Assembly: GCA_947594855.1 (NCBI GenBank)
Contig: CANQEL010000019.1
Location: 1 to 49,160, forward strand
Source: an uncultured Lachnospiraceae bacterium
GTDB taxonomy: Bacteria > Bacillota > Clostridia > Lachnospirales > Lachnospiraceae
Length of the DNA: 49,160 bases
Direction of reading: 5' to 3'
Below, in pieces: positions 21,973 to 49,160 of this stretch (position 1 is the first letter of the stretch; each line of letters starts with the position of its first letter). Under the pieces are notes generated by a model that was not told the origin of the DNA, did not search any database, and saw nothing but the letters and a program-made list of their open reading frames with translations. The position numbers and the translations under genes were made by a program.

Positions 21973-22908
21973 TCAAGCGGTCAAAGTCGCTTTGCCTTTA
22001 TCCTGTAGTATTTCAGCATCATTGAATTGCAGAAATGCATCCAGTTTTGACGCCCAATCCGCCATTGTCATGGGGATATGCCGCCGTGCCTGACGTGTGG
22101 CGTAGTCCAAATACATCGTGACAATCTCATTCAATTCCTGCATTTCTTCCGGTAATAAATAGTTCTTGGCAATTGAAACGTCAGCTTTTACGATCTTGCC
22201 ATCCGGGGCATTGCGCCAAGTGGTCAACCCCATGTGCTCTTTTGTATGGTCAGCTCTCGCCACAACTACTTCAGCTGCGGTATTTCCGTGAATTGCATAG
22301 TGCATTTTATTCTGTACAGTTGCAAAGAAATCTTTGGTGATTTGGCTGTCCGGCGAATAGTCTGCTGCGGTAGCATAAATATCCGTGATCTTTTGGTAGA
22401 ACCGACGTTCACTGGCTCGTATCTCCTGAATCTCAGAAACTAAATGTTCAAAATAGTCCTCATCAAAAATTTGCCCGTTAATCAGCCTGTTCTTGTCCAA
22501 AACATACCCCTGTTTTGTAAAAGTGTCCAAAACCTTTGTTGCCCATTGTCGGAACTGAACCGCTCTGACTGAATTTATTCGATAACCTACGGCGATAATA
22601 GCAGACAATGAATAAAATTTATATTGGTAGGTTTTTCCGTTGTCTGCAACTTGTGCAAAATTTGCACAAGTTGCGGCTTTATCCAATTCGCCGCTCTCAT
22701 ATATGTTCTTCAAATGCTTCGTAACAACGCTTCTGTCTACATCAAAAAGCTGTCCAATCGCCTTTTGCGTAAGCCATACATCATGATCCTGTACCCGAAC
22801 TTCGATGCCATCCTCAAGGGCATCCTTTGTAAAAACAAGAAAATCAACCGTGCTGTTTCTGATTTGCAGCTTATTCCCACCTGTTAAGGTTTTACTATTC
22901 TCAGCCAT
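21973..22908 (-). CDS. rhuM: RhuM family protein with disrupted 3' end
   Basis: 311-aa protein of the RhuM (virulence RhuM/Fic-associated) family. It has an N-terminal winged-helix-like part (VWLTQKAIGQLFDVDRSVVTKH) and the family block AVGYRINSVRAVQFRQWAT. The frame ends ILQDKGKATLTA. The expected C-terminus (SDFDRLMAETDSEKG, stop at 21944) lies in another frame directly after, overlapping the stop. A small non-triplet deletion has probably removed about 25 codons and shifted the frame. Function of RhuM is unclear; it is common on Salmonella islands and mobile DNA. Confidence 0.8.
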   Translation of the reverse strand: MAENSKTLTGGNKLQIRNSTVDFLVFTKDALEDGIEVRVQDHDVWLTQKAIGQLFDVDRSVVTKHLKNIYESGELDKAATCANFAQVADNGKTYQYKFYSLSAIIAVGYRINSVRAVQFRQWATKVLDTFTKQGYVLDKNRLINGQIFDEDYFEHLVSEIQEIRASERRFYQKITDIYATAADYSPDSQITKDFFATVQNKMHYAIHGNTAAEVVVARADHTKEHMGLTTWRNAPDGKIVKADVSIAKNYLLPEEMQELNEIVTMYLDYATRQARRHIPMTMADWASKLDAFLQFNDAEILQDKGKATLTA

Positions 22909-23148
22909 TATACATCCCCGTCCTCTTATTTACCAAATTTTTCGTCATCATTCTCATTCTTCAAGCAACTCTTTCCCTTATTCTAATCATTTTACCAGGG
23001 ATTACAAAAACATAATATTACTGCTCACTTTTTGTATATATTAATTATACTTTAAATCAAATCCGTTTGCAATACATTTTCGAACTAATGTTCTTGCAAA
23101 ATAAAGGGAAGAAGTAAAAACCTGAGAAACAGGGATGAGTAATACCTG

Positions 23149-23304
23149 ATGGACCCAATGAATCTGATCCAGGATAAGTTTTCGCAAGACTGCACGGTGG
23201 AAACCGTCCTGCATCTGCTCCTGTCGCATTTTTCCCTGTCGGAGCAGGAGGCTCAGGCGAAGATTGACGAATACTTTGAGATTATAGATGGAACGCAAAA
23301 ATAA
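23149..23304 (+). CDS. Unrecognised 51-aa protein, copy B
   Basis: Paralogue of the protein at 20906, beginning MDPMNLIQDKFSQDC and ending FEIIDGTQK. No strong ribosome site is seen (AGGGATGAG is about 10 nt upstream). The DNA is more GC-rich than its surroundings. It is again followed by an Rpn gene on the opposite strand, 190 bp away. Confidence 0.5.
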   Translation: MDPMNLIQDKFSQDCTVETVLHLLLSHFSLSEQEAQAKIDEYFEIIDGTQK

Positions 23305-23494
23305 ATGGCTACTGTTATCAGCTGAGCATTATTTGGAACACGTACAATCTCATCAAATATTAGCTACCTTTATTGTTGTACAACGAATTCGTTTTTTGTC
23401 AATGTGCTAATTATTAGAATATTAAATTGAATTACATTTTATAGAGTATAATAACAGATATGGAGCATAGGTTGGAGTATACATCTATTCTAAA

Positions 23495-24322
23495 CTATTC
23501 ATAGTTAGTTATGTCTTCTTTTATTTCAAGAACCTGCTCAAGCGTAAGCCCGGAATAAGCTGCAACTTCCTCATTAGACAACTTCCCTGAACTTAACATT
23601 CTTATTGCTGATTGTTTAATGCCCTCTTCCCGTCCAATTTGCCGTCCAACTTTTTCGCCCTGCTCCAAGCCTTCATCATATTTTTCCTGATACCGCATCT
23701 GTAATGTCATATAACTCACTCTCCACTTGTCGTTTTTCTTTACGGATTCTACTTCCCTTTCCAGTTCCCTTGTATACTCATCTTCCGGCTCGCTGCTGTC
23801 TATGTAATCAAGCAGCCTTTTTAATTCCGGCGTCACATCATCCATTGTTCCTTTAGTGTTCAGGATAATCTTTACCGTATCATCTCCAAGGACCAGTCCG
23901 GGATTCTGCAGACACCTGTTTTCAAAAGTATATATATGTCTTCCTTCTTCAAATACATCAAATGTACATACAAAGATTATGAAGCTTCTCTTCAGCCTCT
24001 TATAGTCCTCGCCCTTTTTCAGTATGTTAAGGTCTACCATTCCCTGATAGTACCTTGTCCTTTTCGGTATGTTTTTCGTTTCAGATGCCTGCATGTCTAT
24101 ATCATATATATTTCCCTCTTCATCCCATACATATATGTCCAGTCTTATGCCTTTTGCATCTGCCTTAAGGTCTATTGTTTTCTGGTAATCGGGATAATTG
24201 ATGCGCGATATTCTTACGCCGAGTACCCGTTCCAGAAACTGCTTGCAGAATCCGGGTTCCCTCATGACAGCTCCGAACATGAAATCATCCTTTATCTGCA
24301 GTTCTTCAAAAGCTTTCTCCAT
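23495..24322 (-). CDS. Rpn family nuclease / putative transposase, copy 2
   Basis: 275-aa intact Rpn protein, near-identical over its N-terminal 200 residues to the copy at 18501. The core shows RLDIYVWDEEG and YDIDMQ, and the tail carries a glutamate/glycine-rich repeat (EGLEQGEKVGRQIGREEG). The start at 24322 was chosen by homology and by AAAGGA upstream. Its last 116 residues match the truncated copy 3. It is the likely parent or sister of that deleted copy. Confidence 0.86.
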   Translation of the reverse strand: MEKAFEELQIKDDFMFGAVMREPGFCKQFLERVLGVRISRINYPDYQKTIDLKADAKGIRLDIYVWDEEGNIYDIDMQASETKNIPKRTRYYQGMVDLNILKKGEDYKRLKRSFIIFVCTFDVFEEGRHIYTFENRCLQNPGLVLGDDTVKIILNTKGTMDDVTPELKRLLDYIDSSEPEDEYTRELEREVESVKKNDKWRVSYMTLQMRYQEKYDEGLEQGEKVGRQIGREEGIKQSAIRMLSSGKLSNEEVAAYSGLTLEQVLEIKEDITNYE

Positions 24323-24614
24323 ATAGTGTTTCCTTTCTTTTATTATATTACATTTATATGCATATGGCAAGCATGATTTTTTGTAAACACATATTCTGCG
24401 CTCCCGCAAATCATCATTCTGACTGCGACCGATACGGCCATGTTATTTACCTTTGAAAGGCACTGTCATGCCTTATTTGAAAAACTGAAATTTCAGAGTG
24501 TTTATTTATTGTAACACATTATTTTGTGTAATGCAATAAGTTTTTTGTTATTAATTAAAATTTTTTAACACCACACTATCACAGCGCCGATTATCTCTAA
24601 AAATGCGCAAAAAA
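24323..24614. repeat. 5' flank of Rpn copy 2
   Basis: Non-coding repeat matching 21494-21785 and partly 19311-19545. It ends at the terminator hairpin at 24615. No gene is present. Confidence 0.75.
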
Positions 24615-26405: not shown

Positions 26406-28169
26406 TCATTCCTCCCAATGAACTGCGACTATATCTTCGATAATCTGTCCTGCTGTCAATCTGTTTTCAACGAGGACCTGTGCAGGGTCATATCGGTCCA
26501 AAAATTCTTTTTTTAGACCGTAATTCAGAACTTTCATATCCGAATTTCCGTAATAGCTCGCTATCTTTTCGCCGAAGCCGCCACTGAGTATGCCGTCCTC
26601 AAGGGTTATAACAAGCTTATGATTAGATTTCAGTTCGTCAAGCAGCTGTCCATCAACTCCGGTAATATACCTTGGATTTATAAGCGTAGGATCCATTCCC
26701 TTTTTTTCAAGTGAATCAACCGTTTCTTCCCCAAGCTGAAAGAAATCCCCCAAGGCAATTATCGCAACTTGTCTGCCTTTTCTGCAAATCTGATACTTAT
26801 TCAATTCATCATAATTTGAATCTACAGGATAATTTGCGTTATGAACTCCATTTCTCGGTATCCTGATCGCAACAGGGTGATTTCTCTGTTCTATACTCCA
26901 TTCAAGCATCGCAATATATTCCTGCTTATTTGTCGGAGCGAGATAAACCATATTTGGAATATTTGAAATAAGCGGTATATCAAATATTCCAAGATGGGTT
27001 ATATCATTCATGCCCCATATTGAAGCATTTCTGACTAATAAAGTTGCAGGAAGATTGTTGATACAAAGCTCCTGGGATATCTGGTCATAGGCGCGCTGAT
27101 AGAAACTGCAATCAGTACAAAATACAGGTTTTCCTCCATTTTTTGAAATACCAGCAGTCATAGTAATAGCATGTTGCTCTGCAATACCTACATCTACAAA
27201 CTGTGAACCAGCATCAATTCTTTTCGATTCTATAAACCCAAGACTTCTTGGTACTCCTGCTGCAACTACAACAATGGAAGGATCACGTTTCATTTTCTTT
27301 AACAACAATTCTCTTGCTAAATTATCATAATTCTCACCCACATAAGAAAATCCAACAAACTCACCTGTCTTAATATCAAACGCTCGTCTCCAATGCCAGT
27401 CTTCTTTAGATTCTTCTGCAAATTTATATCCACAACCTTTTTGAGTGCATATATGAACAATGGTTGGTCTGTCACAGTCTTTTACATTCTTAAATGTTGA
27501 AATCAAATCTTCAATACAATTTCCTTTTTTCACAAAATAATATTCAAATCCTAATGCTCTGAATATATTGTTTTCAGATTTGCCATCTGAATTTCTCAAA
27601 CTTTCAAGATGTTTATATAGTCCTCCATGATTTTCAGCTATTGACATTTGATTGTCATTTACAAGCACAATCAAATTGCTATTAAGTTCATGAGCATAAT
27701 CCAGCCCTTCATACGCTTCGCCACCACTCAGTGCACCGTCTCCTATCACGGCAATTATGTTTTCTCTGCCCTTTAACAAATCCCTTGCCTTGGCCAAACC
27801 GCAAGCCAAGCTAATTGATGTCGAAGTATGACCAACATTAAAAAAATCATGCTCACTCTCATTAGGATTAGTATAACCCGAAACATCAACATATTTCTCA
27901 GGATTAATAAATGCTTCCTTGCGCCCGGTCAGTATTTTATGGGTATAACATTGGTGCGAAACATCAAAGACTATCTTGTCTTCCGGTGAATCGAAAACAT
28001 AGTGAAGTGCTATCGTGGCTTCGACCATTCCAAAATTTGATCCAAAATGCCCACCACGAACACTCATTTTCTGTAAAAGAATATCCCTTATCTCTGCAGC
28101 AAGCTCATTAAGCTGATGAATGTTAAATCCTTTTATATCTTTTGGAGTATTTATATAATTTATCAACAT
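26406..28169 (-). CDS. DXS-like transketolase-family TPP enzyme
   Basis: 587 aa, shorter than housekeeping 1-deoxyxylulose-5-phosphate synthase (about 620) but with its layout. Seen are DVSHQCYTHKILTGR (DXS usually DVGHQAYPHKILTGR), GDGALSGGEAYEGLDYA with the TPP-binding GDG, the catalytic Glu in GIAEQHAIT, and YQRAYDQ. DXS joins pyruvate-derived hydroxyethyl-TPP to an aldehyde. Its position between an SDR and a flippase in a polysaccharide operon suggests a sugar-modifying carboligase rather than isoprenoid supply. AAGGAG precedes the ATG. The substrate is unknown. Confidence 0.8.
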   Translation of the reverse strand: MLINYINTPKDIKGFNIHQLNELAAEIRDILLQKMSVRGGHFGSNFGMVEATIALHYVFDSPEDKIVFDVSHQCYTHKILTGRKEAFINPEKYVDVSGYTNPNESEHDFFNVGHTSTSISLACGLAKARDLLKGRENIIAVIGDGALSGGEAYEGLDYAHELNSNLIVLVNDNQMSIAENHGGLYKHLESLRNSDGKSENNIFRALGFEYYFVKKGNCIEDLISTFKNVKDCDRPTIVHICTQKGCGYKFAEESKEDWHWRRAFDIKTGEFVGFSYVGENYDNLARELLLKKMKRDPSIVVVAAGVPRSLGFIESKRIDAGSQFVDVGIAEQHAITMTAGISKNGGKPVFCTDCSFYQRAYDQISQELCINNLPATLLVRNASIWGMNDITHLGIFDIPLISNIPNMVYLAPTNKQEYIAMLEWSIEQRNHPVAIRIPRNGVHNANYPVDSNYDELNKYQICRKGRQVAIIALGDFFQLGEETVDSLEKKGMDPTLINPRYITGVDGQLLDELKSNHKLVITLEDGILSGGFGEKIASYYGNSDMKVLNYGLKKEFLDRYDPAQVLVENRLTAGQIIEDIVAVHWEE

Positions 28170-28204
28170 TGAAAATATCTCCTTTTCCTATTAAGCAAAA
28201 AACA

Positions 28205-28951
28205 TTATAATGATTGACCACCGTCTATTGTTATAACTGAACCATTTACAAAAGCTGCATCTTCTGAAGCCAAAAAGCTGACAACAGCCGCAACGTCTTC
28301 GGGCTTTCCCACCCGTTTCATAGGAATTTTTTCTTTAAATTTTTCTTCATTAAAAGATTTAAATATTGGTGTTTCAATAATTCCAGGGCAAATACAATTT
28401 GTCCTAAATTCAGCTCCGTACTGTTTGGCAAGCATTTTTGTAAACTTTATTACTGATGCTTTTGAAGCAGCATAAGCGTAGCTCTGTCCACTGGTAAATG
28501 ACTCAAGTCCTGCAACAGAAGCATTGTTTATAATCGTGCCATGATTTTTCTTAATCATCGGAAGTACTGCCTTAGTAAGCATAATCATACCCACAATATT
28601 AATATCGAAAATTTCAATCAATGAAGAATCCGTCAGACTTTCAAGTGGGTCAGAAACAGGATATATTCCAGCATTATTTACCAAAATATCCAAAGAACCG
28701 TATTTAGTATCTATAGTCTTTGCTGCTTCAATTATAGAATTGCGATCAGCCATATCCATATAGACATAACTGTTATACCTTTTGAATTGTGAAATGGAGT
28801 TCAGCTCTTCAACGATAGCCTTACCTCTTTCTTTATTCCTTCCGGCAATTATTACAGTGGCACCTCCTTGTGCAAATCGCTTTGCACAAGCCGTTCCAAT
28901 ACCTGAAGTTCCTCCTGTAACCAGTACTATTTTTCCATTAAAGTTGTTCAT
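28205..28951 (-). CDS. Short-chain dehydrogenase/reductase
   Basis: 248-aa classical SDR: cofactor site GGTSGIGTACA, NNAG, catalytic Ser in NNASVAG, YAASK and C-terminal ITIDGGQSL. It sits between the acetolactate-synthase-like and DXS-like genes, 12 nt after the former. It may reduce the keto group created by one of those carboligases, as YerF does in yersiniose synthesis; that role is inferred. AAAGGAGAATATAT precedes the ATG. Confidence 0.85.
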   Translation of the reverse strand: MNNFNGKIVLVTGGTSGIGTACAKRFAQGGATVIIAGRNKERGKAIVEELNSISQFKRYNSYVYMDMADRNSIIEAAKTIDTKYGSLDILVNNAGIYPVSDPLESLTDSSLIEIFDINIVGMIMLTKAVLPMIKKNHGTIINNASVAGLESFTSGQSYAYAASKASVIKFTKMLAKQYGAEFRTNCICPGIIETPIFKSFNEEKFKEKIPMKRVGKPEDVAAVVSFLASEDAAFVNGSVITIDGGQSL

Positions 28952-28963
28952 ATATATTCTCCT

Positions 28964-30628
28964 TTACAATATATCTAATACCTCAAATAATGTTTTATCC
29001 AACGCCGGAACAAGTTCCTGACACATGTTGCCCCTTGGAAGATTAGGCTCCATGTCAACAGTTTCATCAATTCCAACCTCAACTAAAATAGGTACGTCTA
29101 TTTTTTCAAAAACGCCGGGTATATATTCTTTATATTCAATGCCATAAGCCGCTGCTAGCTTTTTAAAATCAGGCGTTCCGTAACCGCTGTCGGAGGTAGT
29201 ATGTACAAATCTGCCATAACGCTGCCTTTCCCTGCTTCTTATCATTCCCGACGAATGATTGTTCAGGAGCAATATCGCTATCGGAAGCCTGTTCATACCT
29301 ATGAACTGCAGTTCCTGGCTGTTGAGCTGCAAACCCTGATCCCCAGTTACGCAAAACACGGGATGTCTGCTTTTGTAATATACCCCTATGCTTTTTCCAA
29401 GGGAACATCCCAAAGCTCCGAAACACTTAGAATAAAGCGCTCTGTTTGAGATGCCGGCGTAAATATATGCTCTTGACGACCAAAATTCATTGTTGCCTAC
29501 GTCGTTCACTATAATTACGTCACTGCCTATTGTCCTGAAAACTTCCGATAAAATCCCTGTCGGAAGATTTATGTCTGTCTCAAATAAACTATTTTTCAGT
29601 CGCTTGCACACGTCTAGCCATTTTTGAGGTTCAATATAACAGATACTATGCCTTAAAAGCTCATCCAGCGTATCAGAGGCATTTTCAATAAAATGTTTAC
29701 AGTTTGGTATATGCCTGTCCGCTTCACTTTCATCAGCTTCTATCCGGATTATCTCAGCATTTTCATATATTGGTCTGAAACTTTCCGAGTCTGTCGGAAA
29801 AGCAAGCCTGTTTCCAAGCGCTATTATCAGATCAGCCTTTGACAAAATAAAATTCGCATATCTGATACCGTGACTGCCTATATAGCCATAATACATCTCG
29901 GAAGCCGGCATGATGTCTCCGGCACAACGGCTTGAAAGGACAGGGATATCTGCTTTTTCGGCAAGTTCCCGCATTAAATTTTCTGAACACGACTGATGTA
30001 TGCCGTCTCCAATAAGAAATACAGGTCTGCGAGATATTTTCAGCCTGTCAATGATATAATCCGCTGATTTTGACGATGTTATCATATCAGTATTACTATA
30101 CATTCCGTTATCTGAAACTTTCTCTGAAAATATGCCTGAAAGCACATCTATAAGGACGGGACCTTTTCTGCCTTCAACGGCTATATCACAAGCCTTTTTT
30201 ATCTCAAATGGAAATACCTCAGGAGAATCTATCCTGACAGCATATTTTGTAACCGATTTAAATATATCAACTGTATCAAGCTCCTGCTCGCCCGTGAATC
30301 TCAAATTTTTATCAAGCTTTTTTTCTGAATGGGCTGTGACAATCAAAACGGGACTGCCATCACTGTATGCGTCTGCTACAGGAGTGAGTAAGTTAGTTAT
30401 TCCGGGACCTTTTGTAGCATATGCAACACAGAGCCTTCCCGAAAGCTGCGCATACCCGGATGCTGCGAAGCCCGCACACTGCTCATGAAAGCTCAAATGT
30501 ACAGATATATCGTCTTTTCGCCTGTCAAGCTCATAAAGAAAGTCAAGCACAACTCCCCCGGGAATTCCGAAAACATCAGTAACTCCGAGCTTTACAAGAT
30601 AATCAACCAAAAACTCTGCTCCAGTCAT
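28964..30628 (-). CDS. Acetolactate-synthase-like TPP enzyme (possible YerE-type carboligase)
   Basis: 554 aa with the three-domain layout of acetohydroxyacid synthase. The catalytic Glu lies in FHEQCAGFAA (about 49), and the TPP motif GDQGLQ...NN is at about 432-460. The family decarboxylates 2-keto acids and transfers the acyl unit. YerE of Yersinia is such an enzyme and attaches a two-carbon branch to a CDP-4-keto sugar. The nearby rfbF and rfbG genes make a CDP-4-keto sugar, which supports an analogous role. Housekeeping IlvB is less likely, as no ilvN or ilvC is near. Confidence 0.82.
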   Translation of the reverse strand: MTGAEFLVDYLVKLGVTDVFGIPGGVVLDFLYELDRRKDDISVHLSFHEQCAGFAASGYAQLSGRLCVAYATKGPGITNLLTPVADAYSDGSPVLIVTAHSEKKLDKNLRFTGEQELDTVDIFKSVTKYAVRIDSPEVFPFEIKKACDIAVEGRKGPVLIDVLSGIFSEKVSDNGMYSNTDMITSSKSADYIIDRLKISRRPVFLIGDGIHQSCSENLMRELAEKADIPVLSSRCAGDIMPASEMYYGYIGSHGIRYANFILSKADLIIALGNRLAFPTDSESFRPIYENAEIIRIEADESEADRHIPNCKHFIENASDTLDELLRHSICYIEPQKWLDVCKRLKNSLFETDINLPTGILSEVFRTIGSDVIIVNDVGNNEFWSSRAYIYAGISNRALYSKCFGALGCSLGKSIGVYYKSRHPVFCVTGDQGLQLNSQELQFIGMNRLPIAILLLNNHSSGMIRSRERQRYGRFVHTTSDSGYGTPDFKKLAAAYGIEYKEYIPGVFEKIDVPILVEVGIDETVDMEPNLPRGNMCQELVPALDKTLFEVLDIL

Positions 30629-30629
30629 T

Positions 30630-31697
30630 CTATCTCCTCATTAACTGCTCTGCGTCATAGCCGCAAAGCTCCAAAATCTTTTTTGTATTTTCAGGCGTAT
30701 ACCGATGGACCAGATCCGCAGGTATCTTCCCCAAAATATCATCAATCTTACTGTATGTAAGCCCATAGTGTTTTCTTAGTGAAATCGCGTATTTATATGC
30801 CACCTTATGTGTCGCAGGGAGAAGTCTTGTAACCGAATATCCCCACAGCATTTCGCCGCAATATTTTTCCACAATTTCACACACTTCAAGGATAGAACCA
30901 TAATCATATGACTTGCCGTAATTTTTGTTAAGATAATCTGCGATTATCTCAGTTTGAAGATTACCAGCCCCCTGACCCATTCCGAGTGCACAGGAATCAA
31001 TGATAAGCCGTCTGTCTGTTTCTCTGTTTATAAATGAGAGTGCGTTTGAAAACGCAAGGTTCATGTTATTGTGGGCATGGAACCCTACCGCAATATCTCT
31101 GTCAAGGCCTTTGTCGTATTTTATGAATAACCTTTTAATATCTTCAGGCATCATGTATCCGTAGCTGTCTACTATATACAATGCGTATGCGCCCATATCA
31201 TTTGCCGAATCAATTAATTGCCCAACTTCATCGTCAGTATACCGCATTGTAAGCATAGGCTGAACAAATACCTTATAACCCTTTTTTGCCAAGCCCGAAC
31301 AAAAGTCAAGGGATTTTCTGAGTTCCGAATAACGGATGATGACCCTTACGGCTTCGCATAAATCGGGATTCCATTCGGGTATATCTTCAAGCGGTGTATC
31401 CGGGCCACGGTATAAAGCTGCGTATATTTGACCGGCAGGCCTGTTTTCAGGCATGGTTTCGGAAATGGACTCTATGTCCCGGTAGATTGCAAATCCTGTT
31501 CGAGGAGTATCTGTTATTTCCACCGAGCCAAGTTCAACAATCTCAACCTTAGAGCTGCTAAGTTTTCCAGTCACATTAAAAATGTCCGCCTTTAAAAACT
31601 CTAAGTCCGATATCATATTTTTATTTGCATCTTCAAGCCCCAGCCCTCCGTCGCGCAGAGTACAGTCAAGAAGTATAATCTCTTTGATATCAGCCAT
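30630..31697 (-). CDS. DRE-TIM metallolyase (HMG-CoA lyase/4-hydroxy-2-oxovalerate aldolase-like)
   Basis: 355-aa TIM-barrel protein. LLDCTLRDGG near the N-terminus and GFHAHNNMNLA (about 203-213) give the metal-binding pattern of the DRE-TIM family, with GMGQGAGN following. The C-terminal part resembles the DmpG-type aldolase tail. Members split or form C-C bonds next to a keto acid. The gene overlaps the acyltransferase 3' end by 8 bp and the TPP enzyme starts 1 nt after its stop, so the set is translated together. It could make or consume the keto acid used by the TPP enzymes; this is inference. Confidence 0.82.
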   Translation of the reverse strand: MADIKEIILLDCTLRDGGLGLEDANKNMISDLEFLKADIFNVTGKLSSSKVEIVELGSVEITDTPRTGFAIYRDIESISETMPENRPAGQIYAALYRGPDTPLEDIPEWNPDLCEAVRVIIRYSELRKSLDFCSGLAKKGYKVFVQPMLTMRYTDDEVGQLIDSANDMGAYALYIVDSYGYMMPEDIKRLFIKYDKGLDRDIAVGFHAHNNMNLAFSNALSFINRETDRRLIIDSCALGMGQGAGNLQTEIIADYLNKNYGKSYDYGSILEVCEIVEKYCGEMLWGYSVTRLLPATHKVAYKYAISLRKHYGLTYSKIDDILGKIPADLVHRYTPENTKKILELCGYDAEQLMRR

Positions 31698-32841
31698 CCC
31701 CTTTACTGGATTGCAGTTTGAAACAGTTCTCCAAGCCGCTGCAAACTTTTATATATATTTTTGCTCTCTGCATCGGCTTTTCCAAAACATACTCCCGGGT
31801 CGCATCTACAATAATCCCGGCAGCAAATACTGCTAAAATAACTATCAATGTATATGCCATAAGAATCGGCAATTTAACATCGTAAAAACTTTCTACCAGA
31901 AAAACTCTTTTCCAAATAACATATCTAAAATAATTGTGATCGTGCAGCAACAGCATCCCAAAAGTATGGCTTGCAATAAAATTTATAAAACCGCTGTGCT
32001 TCATTTTATAATTTTTAAATATAAAAAACATACAGAATGCCGCTGCCATATTTAATGGTGAAACATCATCGTTGAATATCATAGTTGCCATTGAAAATAA
32101 CCTGGCTTCCGGGTATTTAACAGACAAAACATTAACTGACATATTGAAGATCCAGATACATACAAGCACAGTTACCAATATTCCTTTGCGGTCAAATACC
32201 TTAGCCGGATACCTTTTTATATATACAATGGAAAAATACAAAATAATAAACGTGAATAATCCGTTATCTAAATCTACAAATGGCGAAAAATCTATTATTT
32301 TACTAAAAACTTTTGCCCAAATCTGCATCAAAAAAGCCAACACTATAATTGCCTGGATATTTAATTTACTCATCCTTTCCGATACTGTATTAAGCATCGG
32401 AAGTATCATAAGAAAGATCATATAATATACTGCAAAACCGTGAGATATACCAAATATGGGAAATATACATCCAATCCAATTTCGTGGAGAAACAGGCGCA
32501 ATTATTCCATTATTTAATATTGTTGCTAAAGCCAATCCTACAATATTATAAAAAATAACTTCCAAGGCTATTTTTACAAGTCTGCTGCCTTTGAATTCTT
32601 TTCCTGTGCAAAACCAGGCCGTTATGATAATAAAACAATCATATCCAATTTTACCTCCGGGCAGCAGTACCCCCCCCCACAGCAAATTTGCTATATTGCC
32701 GCCAGACTGCTCAAATATGCCGCCATGCAGAAATAAATGGTGAGCAACAATCATTACCATGCACAGAATTCTTAGAAACTCTATATTGGAATCCCGTGAA
32801 GCGATACGCCCGGTTGTATTTACCAATTTGCTTTTTTCCAT
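31690..32841 (-). CDS. Membrane acyltransferase (acyltransferase-3 family), possibly phase-variable
   Basis: 383 aa with about ten hydrophobic segments. The N-terminal block NIEFLRILCMVMIVAHH fits the acyltransferase-3/OafA family, which adds acetyl or other acyl groups to surface polysaccharide. Codons for WGGV (about residues 55-58) contain an uninterrupted G9 tract (plus-strand C9 at 32670-32678), a classic slippage site. The gene begins 3 nt after the rfbG stop. Confidence 0.82.
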   Translation of the reverse strand: MEKSKLVNTTGRIASRDSNIEFLRILCMVMIVAHHLFLHGGIFEQSGGNIANLLWGGVLLPGGKIGYDCFIIITAWFCTGKEFKGSRLVKIALEVIFYNIVGLALATILNNGIIAPVSPRNWIGCIFPIFGISHGFAVYYMIFLMILPMLNTVSERMSKLNIQAIIVLAFLMQIWAKVFSKIIDFSPFVDLDNGLFTFIILYFSIVYIKRYPAKVFDRKGILVTVLVCIWIFNMSVNVLSVKYPEARLFSMATMIFNDDVSPLNMAAAFCMFFIFKNYKMKHSGFINFIASHTFGMLLLHDHNYFRYVIWKRVFLVESFYDVKLPILMAYTLIVILAVFAAGIIVDATREYVLEKPMQRAKIYIKVCSGLENCFKLQSSKGDG

Positions 32842-32844
32842 GCG

Positions 32845-33897
32845 CTATCCCTCCAAAAATTCCTTTATCTCATTATCCATCTCTGTGGGGATATCATCCC
32901 CCGCAAGCCACGCCTTATAAAAGCGTGTTGTGTATTTCATGCACTCGTCTATGTGCCAGCGCGGTCTCCAGTCAAATGTGCTTTTTAGCTTTGCGCAGTC
33001 AAGTTTCAGGAAATTCGCTTCGTGCGGCGCATCCTTTTCCGCTTGGTTGCTCCACTCCGCGCCGTCGCCCCAGTGTCTGCAGAAAAGAGCAGACAGATCA
33101 CCCGTGGTCACACAGTCACAGTCATCGGGCCCGACGTTGTAAAATCCCGCATAATGCTTGTCCGCATACTGCTTTGCAGCGATCATAAGATATACCGCAA
33201 GCGGTTCCAAAACGTGCTGGTAAGGTCTTGTTGAATACGGGTTCCTTACGCCTATCTTCTCTCTCGCTTTCATCGCGCGCACGCAGTCGGGGATTATCCT
33301 GTCGCTTGCAAAGTCACCGCCGCCGATAACATTTCCTGCCCTTGCAGTAGAAACGGCAATGTCCCTGTTATAAAAAAAGCTGTTCATGTAGCTGTGCGTC
33401 ACAAGCTCAGAACAGGATTTTGAATTTGAATACGGGTCAAATCCGTCAAGGGGCTCATCCTCCCGGTAACCCCAGCACCATTCATTATTTTTATATACCT
33501 TATCAGTCGTGACATTCAGCACACTTTTAACACACGGATTCAGCCGCACGCACTCCATTAGGTTGACTGTGCCCATGACATTTGTTTCATATGTATAATG
33601 TGGATCCCTGTAACTCTCGCGGACGATCGGCTGTGCAGCCAGATGCAGGACAATCTCCGGCTGGGTATCTGCAAAAACAGCTTTCAGCCTGTCAAGATCC
33701 CGGATGTCGGCAATGACGCTTTCCATCCTGCCATTAAGTCCCGAGATGCTGAACAGATTCGGATTTGTCGGTGGTTCAAGGCTGTAGCCTGTAACGGCTG
33801 CCCCGGCATTTATAAGCATCTTACACAGCCACGTTCCTTTGAAACCTGTATGGCCTGTAACAAGGACCTTTTTGTCTTTATAAAATGATAAATCCAT
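32845..33897 (-). CDS. rfbG: CDP-glucose 4,6-dehydratase
   Basis: 350-aa extended SDR. NAD site GHTGFKGTWL, TTDKVY (Thr-Asp-Lys in place of the usual TDE), and YSNSK catalytic Tyr/Lys are visible. It converts CDP-glucose to CDP-4-keto-6-deoxyglucose. It directly follows rfbF. No rfbH (3-dehydrase) is in the window, so the sugar may keep its 3-OH or be modified at C4. Base composition is more GC-rich than the genes on either side. Confidence 0.94.
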   Translation of the reverse strand: MDLSFYKDKKVLVTGHTGFKGTWLCKMLINAGAAVTGYSLEPPTNPNLFSISGLNGRMESVIADIRDLDRLKAVFADTQPEIVLHLAAQPIVRESYRDPHYTYETNVMGTVNLMECVRLNPCVKSVLNVTTDKVYKNNEWCWGYREDEPLDGFDPYSNSKSCSELVTHSYMNSFFYNRDIAVSTARAGNVIGGGDFASDRIIPDCVRAMKAREKIGVRNPYSTRPYQHVLEPLAVYLMIAAKQYADKHYAGFYNVGPDDCDCVTTGDLSALFCRHWGDGAEWSNQAEKDAPHEANFLKLDCAKLKSTFDWRPRWHIDECMKYTTRFYKAWLAGDDIPTEMDNEIKEFLEG

Positions 33898-34677
33898 TTA
33901 ATCCTCCCATATTTTCCACGGTGCACGACCAGATGCCCATAGTTCCTCAAGCTTATCCTTCTCACGCTTGGTATCCATGCACTGCCAGAAGCCGTGGTGA
34001 TAATAGCTTTTAAGCTGTCCCTCAACAGCAAGACGTTTCATTGATTCCTGTTCAAAAACAGTGCCGTCATCATATATGTAATCAAATATTTCGGGGTTGC
34101 ATACCATAAATCCTCCGTTTATGAGCGAACCGTCCTCGTCATCTTTTTCGCGGAAAGCGGTGATTGTGCCGCTGTCGTCAACGTCTAAAACCCCCTTTTG
34201 CTGTGCGAGACTAATCGAAGTAATCGTCGCTACCTTGCCGTGCGACTGGTGATATTCAACTAACTTAGTAATGTCGACGTCCGATACAGCATCGCCGTAT
34301 GTAAGGCAGAACGGCTCGTCTCCAACATATTTCTGAACACGCTTGATTCGGCCGCCTGTCATGGTATTTAATCCTGTGTCAACGACAGTTACTTTCCACT
34401 GCTCAGCATGCTTGTCGTGAACAATTACCTCATCTCCATGAGTGAAATCAAAAGTAACATCTGAGGTATGCAGAAAATAATCCGCAAACCATTCCTTGAT
34501 AACGTGCTGTTTATATCCGGCACAGATGATGAATTCGTTTATTCCTTGTGCGGAGTAGCCTTTCATTATGTGCCATAGGATTGGCATTTCACCGATTTCA
34601 ATCATTGGTTTGGGTTTGAAGGCGGATTCTTCGGAGATGCGTGTTCCAAAGCCGCCGGCGAGAATGACTGATTTCAT
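33898..34677 (-). CDS. rfbF: Glucose-1-phosphate cytidylyltransferase
   Basis: 259-aa nucleotidyltransferase with MKSVILAGGFGTRISEES, KPKPMIEIG and LTYGDAVSDV (metal-binding Asp). It makes CDP-glucose from CTP and glucose-1-phosphate. It abuts rfbG with no gap, so the pair is a unit. Length matches the family (257-260). Confidence 0.95.
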   Translation of the reverse strand: MKSVILAGGFGTRISEESAFKPKPMIEIGEMPILWHIMKGYSAQGINEFIICAGYKQHVIKEWFADYFLHTSDVTFDFTHGDEVIVHDKHAEQWKVTVVDTGLNTMTGGRIKRVQKYVGDEPFCLTYGDAVSDVDITKLVEYHQSHGKVATITSISLAQQKGVLDVDDSGTITAFREKDDEDGSLINGGFMVCNPEIFDYIYDDGTVFEQESMKRLAVEGQLKSYYHHGFWQCMDTKREKDKLEELWASGRAPWKIWED

Positions 34678-38808: not shown

Positions 38809-39431
38809 GACCATTCCTCGCAATATTTTTCATCTATCCATTCTAGTTGCTCTGGTTTAAGAATATCCTCGTAGAATCTTTCCAAATTCTTTGCAACAAA
38901 AGATTTACTAATGTGCTTAAAATCGACCTTCAACAAACAATCGACAATATCATCGTTAAATCTATACCTAATAATTCTTGCTGGAATTCCACCAACAATT
39001 GCATACGGCGGAACATCTTTAGTAACAACAGAACCTGCTGCAACTACAGCCCCCTGCCCGATTGAAACCCCAGACATAATTGTCGCTCCATACCCAATCC
39101 ATACATCATCGCAGATATTAATATCACCTTTTGAAGTAGCTTCAAATTCTTCTATCCCTAATAATTTTACCTTAAAAGGATACGTAGAAATAAAACTTGT
39201 TGGATGACTTGCATCCAAAATAAATGTAACACTCTCGCCGATTGAACAATAGTAACCAATATTAATTTTAGAGACATTGTTGTAATTGATAACTCGAATG
39301 TCACCATATGTATTATCTCCAATATTTATACATCCGATGTTAAAAAGATTTACTGGGCGAGTAAAATTGTTTTTATTCTTCTTTTTCCATTTACTTCTCA
39401 TTTTTTGAAATCTCAAATAGTTCCCAATCAT
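38805..39431 (-). CDS. Hexapeptide-repeat acetyltransferase
   Basis: 208 aa with left-handed beta-helix repeats ([37 protein letters not shown]) and the CatB-type closing motif [13 protein letters not shown] His in DASHPTSF is the likely catalytic base. It probably O- or N-acetylates a sugar using acetyl-CoA in the cytoplasm. Its start overlaps the preceding stop (TAATG). Confidence 0.87.
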
Positions 39432-40654
39432 TATTCGTCCCTACCAACAATCCATTTTTGATGATCCTCTCTTGAGTACAGCTTCATTGCTTTTAACAAT
39501 TTAGTATATTTGTCAAAGCCTAGAAATCTAAACAATATTTTATACATCTTTATCAATAATGAATAATACTTATTTTCTACAGTTGCTTTTTCTGATGTGT
39601 CATTTTTTAAAGTCGAATATATCAATAGTTTCCTTTTTTTCAATAGTTGATAATATTCATTCCTGATTTCAAAAGGCGAACCTATGATTGTATCTTTTAT
39701 AGCAGCATATAATCTTCTATGAAAAGGATTAATAAGTTCTCCATTAGAGTAATAATTGTATCTATACTTCTTTTCCAATCCATTAAGAACATCATGCTGC
39801 AAAAGATCTTTTCCATATTCATATAAAAGAAGTTTAATATCTTCAACGATTTTAATATTTCTAAAGTTATGCGAAATATTGTTTTCAACTAATTTCTTGT
39901 AATTAAAACCGCTAAAATGAACAAAGCACAGTAGATGCATTTCACCATACTGTTTATTTTCTCTTGGAATTACATAAAATGAACCATTATGAATAACTAT
40001 TTTCCTTTCAGAGAAATTCCATGGAGCAACATTACATCCTATATTCTTAATAATAAATAATTCCTCACGTTCAAAAAAAGCAGGTGCAAAATCCATCCAT
40101 TTTTGGTCTGTATAAATTCCCTTCTTGGAATCATCAAAACACTCCGTTTCGAGCATCTTACCCCACCACTTTATAAAAGCCACTACACGTTCAGATTTTT
40201 TGAACCCTACGAATCCACAATTGTATATGCCACAACGAAGATAGCTATCATAGTTTTCAATATCACTCCCCAAGTTAATAGAATGTGGTGTTAAAAAAAC
40301 TTTATATCCTTCTAAATCAAGTTCTTTAAATCTTGAATAAAATTTTATATCAGGATCAATATAAATCACGGTATCGTAATTATCAAAAAATGATAATATA
40401 CAATATGCCTTTATACTAGTACAATACTCAATCAAATCATACTGAAACTTCATTGTTGATATTTTGAGATCATCAATGTTCTTCTTTAGCAAATTATCTG
40501 CATCAATAATATAAGAATCGCCCCCTATATTGTAGTCCACAACTACAATATAGAAATCATAACCATCATGATAGCTCAAAAAAGAATCCCTAACAGTTTT
40601 TGCTATTCCTATATAACTATTAGTACAAATTGTAAAGGCACACTTTTTTCCCAT
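39431..40654 (-). CDS. GT8-like glycosyltransferase
   Basis: 407 aa. The N-terminal half has GT-A features ([25 protein letters not shown], a DxD-type metal site near 98-101). NPFHRR and a basic C-terminal part follow. The assignment to a GT8-like transferase rests on the DxD region and context. Very AT-rich. It lies between the dehydratase and acetyltransferase genes with tight spacing. Confidence 0.7.
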
Positions 40655-40671
40655 TGAAATACTCCTCTATT

Positions 40672-41703
40672 CTATCTCGTCAGGAATGTTTCTCCCTTAT
40701 TAACTCTAGCTCGCCAATAATCTAAAAGATCGTGCATCGTCTTTTCAAAAGAAATCTCTGGTTCCCAACCTGTGTGTACTTTAAACTTCCGACAATCCGG
40801 AACTTGCAAATCCGCATCAATAGGACGTAGACGTTCTATATCAGTAACAATTTGAATTTCATCTTTCTTAGTACTGTAGGAGATAAGAGTATTAAGTGTA
40901 TCACCAACTTCACAAGTGTATGATCCACCAATGTTATAGTATTCACCTGGAATCGGATTAACTGTTACCAGCATATAATAAGCACGTACTGCATCCCGAA
41001 CATCAGCATATGTTCTCAAGCTCTTCAAATTTCCCACCATGACTTTGGGTTCAATCATCCCAGCCTCAATCATCGCAATCTGCTTCGCAAATGTTGATTC
41101 ATGAAACACATCTCCACGACGTGGACCAGTATGTGTAAACATCCTCGTAGTCATAACTGTCATACCATATGCTTCTGCATAATACCGACCCAAAAGATCG
41201 GTGCCAACTTTTGAAATGGCATAAGGACTTGCTGGATGAAATGGACATTCCTCATTAATCCCAGTATCCGGTTTTTTCGCTGCCGGGATCTTACCAAACA
41301 CCTCAGAAGAGGCACAAACATGGATAATCGGTTTATATCCTTTATCCTCATCCATTGCCAAACGAAATGCCTCCAACAGACGACAAGTTCCAAGAATATT
41401 TGTGTTCAATGTATCAATCGGAGCAGTAAAAGAAGTAAGTGGATAAGATTGCGCCGCCAGATGGAATACATAGTCAGGCTTTATCTTGTTGACCACAGTG
41501 ATAAGACTCATCTCATCGTTCAGATCCGCATACTCAAAGAATATCCGATCCTTTTTATTCACACGATCAAGAAGGTGTGATACGTTATCTAACGGGCTAC
41601 GCCAACGGCAAACACCGTAAACATCCCAGTCTGTATTCGTAATCAGAAAATCAGCCAAATGAGATCCTACCATACCAGTAATTCCTGTAATCAATGCTTT
41701 CAT
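40672..41703 (-). CDS. GDP-mannose/GDP-heptose 4,6-dehydratase family protein
   Basis: 343-aa extended SDR with GITGMVGSHL, SSEVFG and YAISK. It resembles GDP-mannose 4,6-dehydratase (Gmd) and its GDP-heptose relatives (DmhA/WcbK, about 343 aa). Because gmhA and hddA are neighbours, a GDP-D-glycero-D-manno-heptose substrate, giving GDP-6-deoxy-4-keto-heptose, is as likely as GDP-mannose. It overlaps the next gene by 4 bp. Confidence 0.82.
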   Translation of the reverse strand: MKALITGITGMVGSHLADFLITNTDWDVYGVCRWRSPLDNVSHLLDRVNKKDRIFFEYADLNDEMSLITVVNKIKPDYVFHLAAQSYPLTSFTAPIDTLNTNILGTCRLLEAFRLAMDEDKGYKPIIHVCASSEVFGKIPAAKKPDTGINEECPFHPASPYAISKVGTDLLGRYYAEAYGMTVMTTRMFTHTGPRRGDVFHESTFAKQIAMIEAGMIEPKVMVGNLKSLRTYADVRDAVRAYYMLVTVNPIPGEYYNIGGSYTCEVGDTLNTLISYSTKKDEIQIVTDIERLRPIDADLQVPDCRKFKVHTGWEPEISFEKTMHDLLDYWRARVNKGETFLTR

Positions 41704-42563
41704 AATTTGATATCCTCCAACTCTTTTGCAATTTTTTCTGTAAATGTACTATCAGGGAGGATTCCGTATTTTTTCAAATACAGGCTCCTCATTTGTGTAA
41801 TTTGTGGTCGGTTCATAAAAAATTCTTTTTCTGGCATTGAAATTGTGTACTTAAGCTTATCACAAACAAACCTATTTAATTCATCAGCTATTCTTATGCG
41901 ACTAACAAGTTCCTTGCCAGCAACATTCAGATACTTGGGTTCGTACTCATCCCAGTGGAGCGCAAAGTATGTGACAACATCCACAACATCTGAAACAACT
42001 ATTACATTTCGATAAAAGGGATGAAAAATATCGGCAGTTTCCTCATTTCTAATACAATTCAGACAATAAGTAATGAAACGATCCTTTGCCGATGCTACAT
42101 ATGAAAGTCTTATTGCTTTAAACAGTGATTCATCAATAAATTCATCTTCTACTGCCTTTTTCATTTGTCCATATGCCGTCTGCGCAGCAGTGGCAGATTT
42201 TTCATCATAAATTGCCATTGGGATATCTCCAAACACAGCATCAGATGAAAAAAACAACACACGGCAATTTCGCTTAATTGCCTCTCGAATAAAATATATT
42301 GTTCCTGTCACATTAATCTTCCAACATTCTTCAAATTCCTGGGCGCATTTATCCGGTTCAGATATGGCTGCGGTAAATACAATATAGTCAATGCTTTCCA
42401 GCAAAGAATAATCAAACTCTGCAGGAATGGAAAGATCAAGATAAGCATCTGATTCGCTATTTTTGTCTAATGTCAGAACATATTCAATTTCTGGCTTTTT
42501 AGCAAATCTCTTTAAAATAAATTGTGCTATATACCCCGAACTTCCTACAAGTGCTGTTTTCAT
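41700..42563 (-). CDS. RmlD-like NAD(P)-dependent sugar reductase/epimerase
   Basis: 287-aa SDR with GSSGYIAQF, SSDAVFGD and YGQMKKA (Tyr/Lys pair). It resembles RmlD-type reductases. Its place between gmhA and the 4,6-dehydratase, with 4-bp overlaps on both sides, suggests it reduces the 4-keto-heptose made by the dehydratase, as DmhB does. The exact reaction is inferred. Confidence 0.78.
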   Translation of the reverse strand: MKTALVGSSGYIAQFILKRFAKKPEIEYVLTLDKNSESDAYLDLSIPAEFDYSLLESIDYIVFTAAISEPDKCAQEFEECWKINVTGTIYFIREAIKRNCRVLFFSSDAVFGDIPMAIYDEKSATAAQTAYGQMKKAVEDEFIDESLFKAIRLSYVASAKDRFITYCLNCIRNEETADIFHPFYRNVIVVSDVVDVVTYFALHWDEYEPKYLNVAGKELVSRIRIADELNRFVCDKLKYTISMPEKEFFMNRPQITQMRSLYLKKYGILPDSTFTEKIAKELEDIKL

Positions 42564-43237
42564 ATAACCACCTTCGTTTTTGAATCTCCAAAAAACTTAT
42601 CTTCCAACATCAGACACCAGCAGTGATACACTGGCAGATGCAACTCCTGAATCATATATGTTTCAATCTGCGGAACCTTAACAGCAACATCTGCCACCGA
42701 TGCTAGTTCGCCACCCTTTGCTCCTGTCAATCCGATAACCTTAATTTCCAACGCACGGGCAACTACAGTCGCACTCATAACATTCTTACTATTTCCACTC
42801 GTACTAATTCCAAGGAATACATCTCCTGGACGTCCAAACCCAAACAACTGCTGTGCAAATACTCCTAACCCATCTACATCATTTATATAAGCAGTAGACA
42901 AAGCATCATATGCAGCCAATGAGATTGCCATCAGACCACATTCCAGATTTTTGGCTAAATTAGCACCTCTTACAGAGTCAATTGCTCTCAACTTATTAGC
43001 CATATCAGATGGCACAGGTCTTGGCGTTTTGAACCGTTTCATAAGTTCGCCTGCTATATGTTCGGCATCTGCTGCTGACCCGCCATTACCAGCAATGAGC
43101 AGTTTTCCATCATGTTCATAGCATTCTTCCATAATAAGGTATGCTTCAACTATATCTTTCCGGCATGATTCCAAGACCGGATATCTATCCATCAAAAGGT
43201 CAATGTGCTTTTCAAGTCTCTTCTCTAGCAGTTTCAT
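42560..43237 (-). CDS. gmhA: Sedoheptulose-7-phosphate isomerase (GmhA-like, SIS domain)
   Basis: 225-aa SIS-fold protein with the GmhA signatures AGNGGSAADAEHIAGEL and ISTSGNSKNV. GmhA converts sedoheptulose-7-phosphate to D-glycero-D-manno-heptose-7-phosphate, the first step to ADP- or GDP-heptose. Length is slightly above the usual 190-200. It is linked by overlap to the reductase gene. Confidence 0.9.
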   Translation of the reverse strand: MKLLEKRLEKHIDLLMDRYPVLESCRKDIVEAYLIMEECYEHDGKLLIAGNGGSAADAEHIAGELMKRFKTPRPVPSDMANKLRAIDSVRGANLAKNLECGLMAISLAAYDALSTAYINDVDGLGVFAQQLFGFGRPGDVFLGISTSGNSKNVMSATVVARALEIKVIGLTGAKGGELASVADVAVKVPQIETYMIQELHLPVYHCWCLMLEDKFFGDSKTKVVI

Positions 43238-43377
43238 GATCTTTTAACCTCTCACTATTTTGTATGCGATTGTCACACCATTCGTTCAAAAACCCAATGG
43301 TCACAACCTACTCTTAATCTCTTTTACCAATCAACTTTGTCTTACATCCAATTTTCCACCCGATATGATTGCTATCT
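43238..43377 (-). other. Gap between hddA and gmhA
   Basis: Two short open stretches on the minus strand (IAIISGGKLDVRQS and IGFLNEWCDNRIQ) have stops between them. They may be traces of a lost gene, but neither can be assigned. No terminator or promoter is convincing. Confidence 0.25.
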
Positions 43378-44388
43378 TTATACCATTCCCTTTGGTGTAT
43401 AGCTTTCAGGAATATAATGAATCACTCGTGTTCCAGAATCCTCAAAACGAAACGGCACATACAAAAGGTCTTTCATCGCCTCCATTACCGCTTTCTGCTT
43501 TTCTGGCTGAACATAAAATAAAAGGAATCCGCCACCACCAGCACCCAAAAGCTTACCGCCCAATGCACCTGCTGCGATACCTTTCTCATAGAGAATATCT
43601 ATGCTGTTAGTCGTGATTGCACCACCTGTCTGCCTTTTCAACATCCATGTAACGTCAAGCAATCTGCCAAAATCATCAAGATCGGAATGATTGTCTTCTA
43701 GTATTTTTTCAGCCTCATCAACGAGACTGTATATTTCCTGTAACTGTTTCACCTTTTCTGTATACCCAACGGCATTCGCTTTTTGCATATCTGAAGAAAA
43801 CCTTGTAAAGCCTGTAAAAAATATAAGCAGATTATCGTTTAATTGCTGCTTACGCTCCGGATGTATAACGATCGGTCTAACATCATACGTACCGTCTTTA
43901 TAAAATTCAATACGATTCATCCCTCCAAAGGACGCAGCAATCTGATCCTGCCATCCACCAACTTCCTGACATAAAACGCGTTCCAAATAAATTGCTTTAT
44001 CCGCCAGCTTTCTCTTATCAACATATTTCCCCTTTAATGCATAAAATGCATTTAGCATACCAACAGCAAAAGAACTAGATGTACCAAGTCCTGATCGTGC
44101 TGGAAGATCCGCTTCATAAATGAGCCTGATTTCATGCATATCCAACATCTTCATTGCATTGCGGATTGCAGGATGTTTTATCTCCTCAACACTCTTTACA
44201 TATTCCATTTTTGAATATGTAAGATGCGTTGTAAAATCAAAAAATCTTGGCAGATGACGCACAGTCACATAACAATACTTGTCAAATGTGGTACTTAAAA
44301 CAGCTCCCCCATATTCTCTGAAAAAACTTTCCATATCAGTTCCGCCGCCAAAGAATGACATGCGAAAAGGCGTTTTTGTAATTATCAT
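43378..44388 (-). CDS. hddA: D-glycero-D-manno-heptose-7-phosphate kinase (HddA-like, GHMP)
   Basis: 336-aa GHMP kinase with ITKTPFRMSFFGGGTD at the start, the phosphate loop PARSGLGTSSSFAVG and the C-terminal LGAGGGGFLLF. HddA makes heptose-1,7-bisphosphate in the GDP-heptose pathway. The bisphosphatase GmhB and the guanylyltransferase HddC are not in the window. A 140-bp gap separates it from gmhA; most Gmh/Hdd genes are tighter. Confidence 0.88.
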   Translation of the reverse strand: MIITKTPFRMSFFGGGTDMESFFREYGGAVLSTTFDKYCYVTVRHLPRFFDFTTHLTYSKMEYVKSVEEIKHPAIRNAMKMLDMHEIRLIYEADLPARSGLGTSSSFAVGMLNAFYALKGKYVDKRKLADKAIYLERVLCQEVGGWQDQIAASFGGMNRIEFYKDGTYDVRPIVIHPERKQQLNDNLLIFFTGFTRFSSDMQKANAVGYTEKVKQLQEIYSLVDEAEKILEDNHSDLDDFGRLLDVTWMLKRQTGGAITTNSIDILYEKGIAAGALGGKLLGAGGGGFLLFYVQPEKQKAVMEAMKDLLYVPFRFEDSGTRVIHYIPESYTPKGMV

Positions 44389-46717: not shown

Positions 46718-46861
46718 TTTACTTCCTCCCAATTTGCCATTCCCTGATAACTAAACAGTAAGCTTTTTATAAATATATAATTTCTTAGACAGTAAATGTC
46801 TTATCCTCAAGTTTACATATCGCTTAGAACATTTAAAACTATTTTACAAAACAAATATTCC
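46718..46861 (-). other. Gap between GT4 and radical-SAM gene
   Basis: 144 bp, AT-rich. It contains a short inverted repeat AGACA...TGTCT near 46784-46800. It could be a weak internal terminator or nothing. No gene is seen. Confidence 0.3.
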
Positions 46862-48950: not shown

Positions 48951-49160
48951 GTCCGCTTCCTCCTGTTTTAACCAGTGATTATTTTTTATACACAAAATCT
49001 GTAGTAATTTATCCAATATTTACCTTATATACTTATATATAAGGACTTATTTTCCTGCCACCCTATCAAAACTGCTTATTTTATGCAGACATGAAAAAGC
49101 TGTTTTCTGCCCGTATTTACTGCATTTGGAGCATTTTGTCCATATTATTTCACGTAGTCC
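48951..49160 (-). promoter_or_regulatory. Upstream region of loaP copy 2
   Basis: Conserved non-coding region as for copy 1, with the perfect inverted repeat CCTTATATA...TATATAAGG at 49023-49044. The promoter of the large operon should lie here or just past the edge. Confidence 0.45.

Follow-up and report, generated by a model that had tools for sequence, protein, structure and literature searches.

A candidate pathway to a long-branched CDP-activated 6-deoxy sugar in a polysaccharide gene cluster of an uncultured Lachnospiraceae bacterium

Carboligation of the YerE/ErwE type is a known way of making long-branched sugars (PMC12247030). ErwE, from the erwiniose route of Pectobacterium atrosepticum, leaves pyruvate unused in favour of donors that are longer and functionalised, e.g. 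4-hydroxy-2-oxo acids, and a similar choice of donor is ascribed to MMAR_2332, from the caryophyllose route of Mycobacterium marinum (PMC12247030). Caryophyllose is a 3,6-dideoxy-4-C-(1,3,4,5-tetrahydroxyhexyl)-hexose with no hydroxyl at 2′ (PMC5706390). JanthE is a YerE-like enzyme accepting 4-hydroxy-2-oxovalerate (PMC12188165). Few groups of thiamine diphosphate (ThDP) enzymes are known to accept ketones and give tertiary alcohols, and such enzymes are sought as biocatalysts (PMC12247030). Here we describe a gene block encoding a candidate YerE-like carboligase in a 49,160-bp stretch of DNA (the whole of which is called the window; contig CANQEL010000019.1 of assembly GCA_947594855.1) from an uncultured Lachnospiraceae bacterium. 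For its core of aldolase, carboligase and reductase we consider it probable that this block makes a CDP-activated 6-deoxyhexose whose C4 carries a long carbon branch, destined for the surface polysaccharide of the surrounding cluster.

Organization and conservation of the block

The block was a minus-strand run of seven genes from rfbF to a gene for a protein resembling 1-deoxyxylulose-5-phosphate synthase (DXS), and included a short-chain dehydrogenase/reductase (SDR) and an acetolactate synthase (ALS)-like carboligase:

33898–34677, minus strand: rfbF, glucose-1-phosphate cytidylyltransferase (TIGR02623, 376.7 bits, cut-off 300.25)
32845–33897, minus strand: rfbG, CDP-glucose 4,6-dehydratase (TIGR02622, 438 bits, cut-off 278.45)
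31690–32841, minus strand: accessory acyltransferase, Acyl_transf_3 (PF01757, 46 bits, cut-off 31), matched in two of 23 relatives (L080, L081)
30630–31697, minus strand: DRE-TIM aldolase (HMGL-like, PF00682) with a 9-residue insert immediately past the TLRDGG motif
28964–30628, minus strand: ThDP carboligase of the GDQ clade, ALS/YerE-like, with three TPP-enzyme domains
28205–28951, minus strand: classical SDR reductase (PF13561/PF00106), occupying the place of the relatives' extended SDR
26406–28169, minus strand: DXS-like ThDP enzyme of the NF008968 lineage (879.1 bits, cut-off 510), with Asn where E. coli has Arg420

Intergenic gaps ranged from −8 to 35 bases (in reading order 0, 3, −8, 1, 12 and 35), which bears out the consecutive, tightly spaced arrangement downstream of rfbF and rfbG described in an earlier note on this DNA; the acyltransferase gene between rfbG and the aldolase gene was unnamed there. 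The polysaccharide cluster around the block also encoded glycosyltransferases and two flippase-like proteins, and gave a weak Wzy_C match under its cut-off.

Relatives were found by one scan of a species-genome collection with the carboligase alone, neighbouring genes not being used for selection. Twenty-three relatives (loci designated by L numbers), 40–78% identical to the window carboligase, were confirmed, a lower bound because the scan used short peptides from the window protein. Their record titles named Clostridia, Ruminococcus, Lachnospiraceae, Clostridiales, Coprococcus, Eubacterium, Phascolarctobacterium, Acetobacterium and Butyrivibrio, and also Prevotella, Bacteroidales, Campylobacteraceae, Elusimicrobiaceae, Spirochaetia and CSSED10-310 (six phyla in the whole set, judged from names). 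Among the clade members were sequences of four named strains. Butyrivibrio sp. AC2005 and Prevotella communis E15-14 had a DXS gene as well, whereas the available stretches of Phascolarctobacterium faecium DSM 14760 and Acetobacterium tundrae DSM 9173 showed none.

The carboligase gene was adjoined by an aldolase gene in 22 of the 23 relatives (the L083 contig begins at the carboligase), and rfbF lay beside it in 20 and rfbG in 19. The contigs of L082, L083 and L098 were cut, accounting for all those without rfbF; L096 had no rfbG in 21.7 kb. A reductase was present in 22 relatives, as an extended SDR in 21 and as a classical SDR of the window type in L095, L089 being cut. A DXS gene was found in 13 and a split transketolase instead in L088; neither was present in four relatives with long flanks (L085, L091, L096 and L101), and five ended too early to judge (L080, L082, L084, L089 and L098). 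Aldolase, carboligase, DXS and any reductase occurred jointly in 12 of 23. Thus the four genes proposed earlier as a block do co-occur in other genomes, but the foursome with the window's own SDR was rare (two of 23: L081, where this gene is broken, and L095), an extended SDR usually standing in its place.

For comparison, a 4.5-kb stretch around the IlvB-like gene of the same genome contained no match to the block aldolase, rfbF or rfbG, and 32 stretches of 4.9–17.7 kb surrounding NF008968 DXS genes from elsewhere (22 further genomes of the window's family supplied 23 of them, one other family of the phylum three, and plasmid-collection records six) contained no match to the carboligase, aldolase, rfbF or rfbG. 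The shared neighbours of the block, conserved in relatives selected by carboligase only and missing around the IlvB-like and other NF008968 genes, exceed chance.

The block was patchily distributed. Among 10 genomes of the genus, the window's included, a carboligase match at 1e-75 was obtained in the window's genome only, and among 398 genomes of the phylum there was one other match (G448), falling outside the block clade; misses in the phylum scan are soft because at most three candidates per genome were scored. Plasmid records gave 21 carboligase matches, all at most 33.0% identical (15 annotated as acetolactate synthase, five without a feature and one unannotated), and phage records gave at most 30.7% identity among the matches listed (10 of 45).

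No rfbH was found in the window's genome (97.6% complete), as had been noted earlier: the best match to the RfbH-type protein of L094 was a 30% identical stretch on another contig (C1). This absence had been taken to set the product apart, but rfbH appears to be optional, as rfbH-like genes were present in six of 23 relatives (L082, a fragment, L090, L094, L095, L099 and L102). Two of the encoded proteins were tested and passed NF011936 (728.7 and 718.3 bits, cut-off 423); a 24% DegT match in L086 was excluded from the count.

Enzymes of the block

The block carboligases (23 tree rows) formed one clade (100/100) apart from IlvB/IlvI, the IlvB, IlvI and Gcl rows of the same tree grouping at 100/99; the short rows L089 and A540_L052 were omitted. 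The ThDP motif GDG was replaced by GDQ in 24 of 24 block carboligases. A split at 99/93 placed the block with the JanthE side and put 5ahk, which we take to be PpYerE, and G448 with the IlvB side, though the rooting is uncertain and 8rph and Gcl are long branches. 5ahk and G448 paired at 82/30 only, and neither was inside the block clade. The window carboligase scored under the cut-off for acetohydroxyacid synthase (AHAS; TIGR00118, 279.3 bits against 538.35), and none of 25 listed families (of 51) was passed. Two structure models were compared with solved structures only, and the nearest to the carboligase was JanthE (8rph), at 26–27% identity. The protein is thus of the ThDP decarboxylase type, lies outside housekeeping AHAS and adjoins genes for a CDP-4-keto deoxy sugar. 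A comparison set beforehand, the phylogeny of both ThDP enzymes, gave the same answer: the carboligase fell outside the IlvB/IlvI clade, and the two canonical Dxs proteins included did not group with the DXS-like protein. These data support a predicted non-housekeeping ThDP enzyme in a gene context that fits carboligation on a CDP-4-keto sugar, similar to or more elaborate than that of yersiniose as was suggested earlier, with the aldolase and second ThDP enzyme as extra steps.

The aldolase had the TIM fold, the RDG motif and the HxHNN metal motif of DRE-TIM (HMGL-like) enzymes, and we presume that both motifs have their usual roles in that superfamily. Its motifs were compared with those at 20 of 40 fetched loci of longer, ~540-residue aldolases (ALD-540). 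A second, separate carboligase lineage was seen near mostly ~540-residue aldolases, at 15 of the 40 fetched aldolase loci (L041, L045, L050–L052, L055, L057–L060, L064–L066, L070 and L072), and eight of 40 also had rfbF or rfbG. That these loci represent the same system was rejected, their carboligases forming a clade on the JanthE side.

The window SDR passed one broad subfamily, NF005559 (224.7 bits, cut-off 215), among 25 listed of 240. The extended SDRs of two representative relatives belonged to PF01370, and the best match to the relatives' extended SDR in the window's genome was 26–35% identical. At L081 (11672–13463) the classical SDR was split into two frames and an open extended SDR came next. 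Either reductase may be able to replace the other, or the split may stem from faulty assembly.

The canonical dxs of the genome was on a separate contig (C14, 768.1 bits). In a tree and alignment that omitted the split transketolase of L088 and also L167, whose gene is in two pieces, 45 NF008968 proteins separated from two canonical Dxs rows (100/100), and 13 of 14 block copies formed a subclade (100/98) with one stand-alone protein, SOLO_L163, the copy of L099 lying outside on a long branch. The E. coli positions His49, His80, His299, Glu370 and His431 were kept in all 14 block copies, presumably with the same roles. Arg420 and Arg478 are two DXS residues reported to be important for glyceraldehyde-phosphate binding (PMC11908136). 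Arg420 was replaced in every block copy (Asn in 13, Ser in one), and the Asp427 position was Asn in 12 of 14, the window's included; the Arg478 position differed in at least 25 of 31 stand-alone NF008968 copies. As predicted from these residues, the acceptor of the DXS-like enzyme may well be other than glyceraldehyde 3-phosphate.

A role for the whole NF008968 subfamily in this pathway was rejected, given the 32 stretches described above. No common neighbourhood was seen for the NF008968-like DXS genes that stand alone in records of Bacteroides, Cetobacterium, Enterococcus, Lactobacillus, Selenomonas and Collinsella (L136–L141). At L163 (6649–11906) the stand-alone DXS of the block subclade lay beside a TarI/IspD-like cytidylyltransferase (152.6 bits), a TarF-like transferase (127.1 bits) and an extended-SDR-like protein, all under cut-offs; this set perhaps supplies a teichoic-acid-like polymer with a 1-deoxy polyol unit.

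Predicted pathway and alternatives

RfbF and RfbG, assigned at the family level, would make CDP-4-keto-6-deoxy-D-glucose, and because rfbH was not found the sugar would keep its 3-OH. From its fold, metal motif and precedent, the aldolase would join pyruvate to an aldehyde to give a 4-hydroxy-2-oxo acid. The GDQ-clade carboligase, judging from clade, structure and neighbours, would decarboxylate this acid with ThDP and add the acyl carbanion to the C4 ketone, leaving a tertiary alcohol and a 1′-keto branch, and the SDR would reduce the 1′-ketone. This scheme follows ErwE and its preference for functionalised 4-hydroxy-2-oxo acid donors (PMC12247030). Hence the earlier view of the aldolase as an addition to the yersiniose route holds in that it is an extra step, but aldolase-fed carboligation itself has precedents in ErwE and MMAR_2332 (PMC12247030).

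The weakest step is that of the DXS-like enzyme, which would act either ahead of the aldolase or following it. It would move an acetyl unit of pyruvate onto an aldehyde that is not glyceraldehyde 3-phosphate, and so give the methyl end of the branch (CH3-CO-, then CH3-CHOH-). We put this forward tentatively, as a doubtful part of the scheme. By our own deduction, the caryophyllose branch (PMC5706390) would be what a pyruvate aldolase, a carboligase, a reductase and an acetyl-transferring enzyme leave behind: its 2′-CH2 would be the destination of the pyruvate methyl carbon and its CHOH-CH3 end the result of acetyl transfer and reduction, which provides a place for a DXS-like enzyme. The split transketolase in the DXS place of L088 fits transfer of a C2 unit at this step.

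Several observations weigh against this scheme. The aldolase passed none of its 14 listed families' cut-offs (TIGR03217, 79.8 bits against 286) and has RDGGLG where MhpE has RDGMHA, without the His of the MhpE DGMH motif. By sequence score AHAS (6lpi, 194.7 bits) was nearer to the carboligase than JanthE (179.5 bits), and the reductase was not a single conserved gene across the relatives. These are mostly metagenome-assembled genomes and the set is patchy, so that they are not independent events. The DXS-like protein passed the DXS equivalogs NF003933 (620.2 bits, cut-off 395) and, barely, TIGR00204 (469.4 bits, cut-off 465.95), its nearest solved structure, 9kpq (804.6 bits), was named DXS by its depositors, and Arg478 was kept in 12 of the 14 block copies, the window's among them; the protein may therefore be an ordinary DXP synthase. 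Its absence from the four long-flanked relatives puts it outside the invariant core, and no isomerase was seen that would convert a DXS-made ketose into an aldehyde. The substrates and product of the pathway are predictions from gene content.

Housekeeping roles, with the DXS-like protein as an additional DXP synthase and the ALS-like protein feeding branched-chain amino acids, would agree with the two DXS cut-offs passed and with the NCBI name of NF008968, DXS. Such roles are nevertheless highly improbable in view of the trees and motifs of both ThDP enzymes, the loss of Arg420, the carboligase score under the TIGR00118 cut-off, and the separate dxs and IlvB-like genes (contigs C14 and C7). 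Another alternative is a yersiniose-type branch of two carbons: the carboligase would add an acetyl unit from pyruvate, the donor of YerE (PMC12247030), to C4, and the aldolase and DXS would serve otherwise. A yersiniose-like gene set was observed at L168 (4319–12316; genome G448), from another family of the window's phylum, with rfbF, rfbG, a carboligase 42% identical to 5ahk and rfbH (594.6 bits), and no aldolase match in 19 kb; a simple route of this kind thus seems to be present in the same phylum. For the block itself we consider it unlikely, as the aldolase adjoins the carboligase in every relative but the one whose contig begins there, and the clade includes neither 5ahk nor G448.

The acyltransferase gene in the operon would suit a free hydroxy-keto or acyl building block attached to the polysaccharide by that enzyme, the CDP genes being separate. 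This is very unlikely, for the acyltransferase was matched in two of 23 relatives against 20 for rfbF (the other three contigs being cut), and no other evident user of CDP-4-keto-6-deoxyglucose was seen among the subset of window open reading frames scanned (39431–40654 was without any match). Lastly, the DXS may be a second carboligase acting on the sugar itself, at the new 1′-ketone or a branch aldehyde, or the two ThDP enzymes may make two branches. For miharamycin and amipurimycin, addition to keto sugars by transketolases has been proposed (PMC12247030). The split transketolase that L088 has instead of DXS, and the retention of Arg478 in 12 of 14 block copies despite the loss of Arg420, also point this way. 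Since a reductase was present in all 22 relatives that can be judged, however, the 1′-ketone is probably reduced, and we know of no DXS that accepts a ketone; we regard these readings as rather unlikely.

Returning to the aldolase-fed scheme, its fullest form, possible but doubtful, would be a new route by which Bacillota and Bacteroidota of the gut make branched 6-deoxy sugars of C10–C12, with two ThDP enzymes working in series. In it a DXS relative that has ceased to use glyceraldehyde 3-phosphate would build a 1-deoxy end, the insert-bearing pyruvate aldolase would extend it, and the GDQ carboligase would attach it to CDP-4-keto-6-deoxyglucose with the 3-OH kept, giving a monosaccharide not yet described.

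Surroundings and comparison with known systems

Other genes of the window were seen around the block. At 40672–44388 a GMD-like dehydratase, an RmlD-like protein, a GmhA-like isomerase and an HddA-like kinase were consecutive, any NCBIfam matches being under cut-offs; through GDP-heptose they perhaps provide the same polysaccharide with a second unusual sugar. A Radical SAM/SPASM protein (45536–46732) was flanked by glycosyltransferase genes. At the upstream end of the cluster lay a NusG-like protein (48207–49016), perhaps a specialised elongation factor for the polysaccharide operon, and downstream of the cluster a RhuM-family protein and an Rpn-family nuclease/transposase (21973–24409), a possible sign of mobility.

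No paper on a block of aldolase, carboligase and DXS, or on a DXS partner, was found in the literature covered, which excludes a survey of >200 YerE-like clusters (Krug 2024, cited in PMC12247030) and the ErwE paper (Steitz 2022), where the clade may be listed; the available parts of PMC13354803 and PMC4403928 held no useful enzyme list. The GDQ clade, the aldolase insert and the DXS partner look new, though the clade may be in the earlier survey. A deep carboligase clade with its own ThDP motif, present in named strains, offers new enzymes to test; a DXS relative in surface-sugar synthesis, if true, would be a new use of the fold, and long-branched sugars on gut bacteria, if true, would be unusual surface structures.

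The earlier note attributed the yersiniose route to YerE and YerF. Compared with the known systems, the block resembles yersiniose synthesis by YerE in pairing a ThDP carboligase for a CDP-4-keto deoxy sugar with a subsequent reduction, but the yersiniose branch has two carbons, comes from pyruvate and is on a 3,6-dideoxy sugar (PMC12247030). JanthE, from Janthinobacterium sp. HH01, differs in grouping with the ALD-540-linked carboligases outside the block clade, besides its low identity and the GDQ motif of the block. The block DXS resembles Dxs in passing NF003933 and TIGR00204 and in keeping His49, Glu370, His431 and Arg478, and differs in its NF008968 lineage and in Asn at the Arg420 and Asp427 places. 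Likened by description, the caryophyllose system of MMAR_2332 shares a long branch whose pattern fits aldolase, carboligase and reductase, with a methyl end, whereas its sugar is 3,6-dideoxy (PMC12247030, PMC5706390). Likened in the same way, erwiniose synthesis by ErwE shares a YerE-like carboligase, a CDP-4-keto deoxyglucose acceptor and a 4-hydroxy-2-oxo acid donor; the ErwE acceptor is CDP-4-keto-3,6-dideoxyglucose, and the DXS partner belongs to the window block (PMC12247030). RfbH, expected of the 3,6-dideoxy routes to erwiniose, yersiniose and caryophyllose, was not found in the window's genome, where the predicted sugar would be a 6-deoxyhexose.

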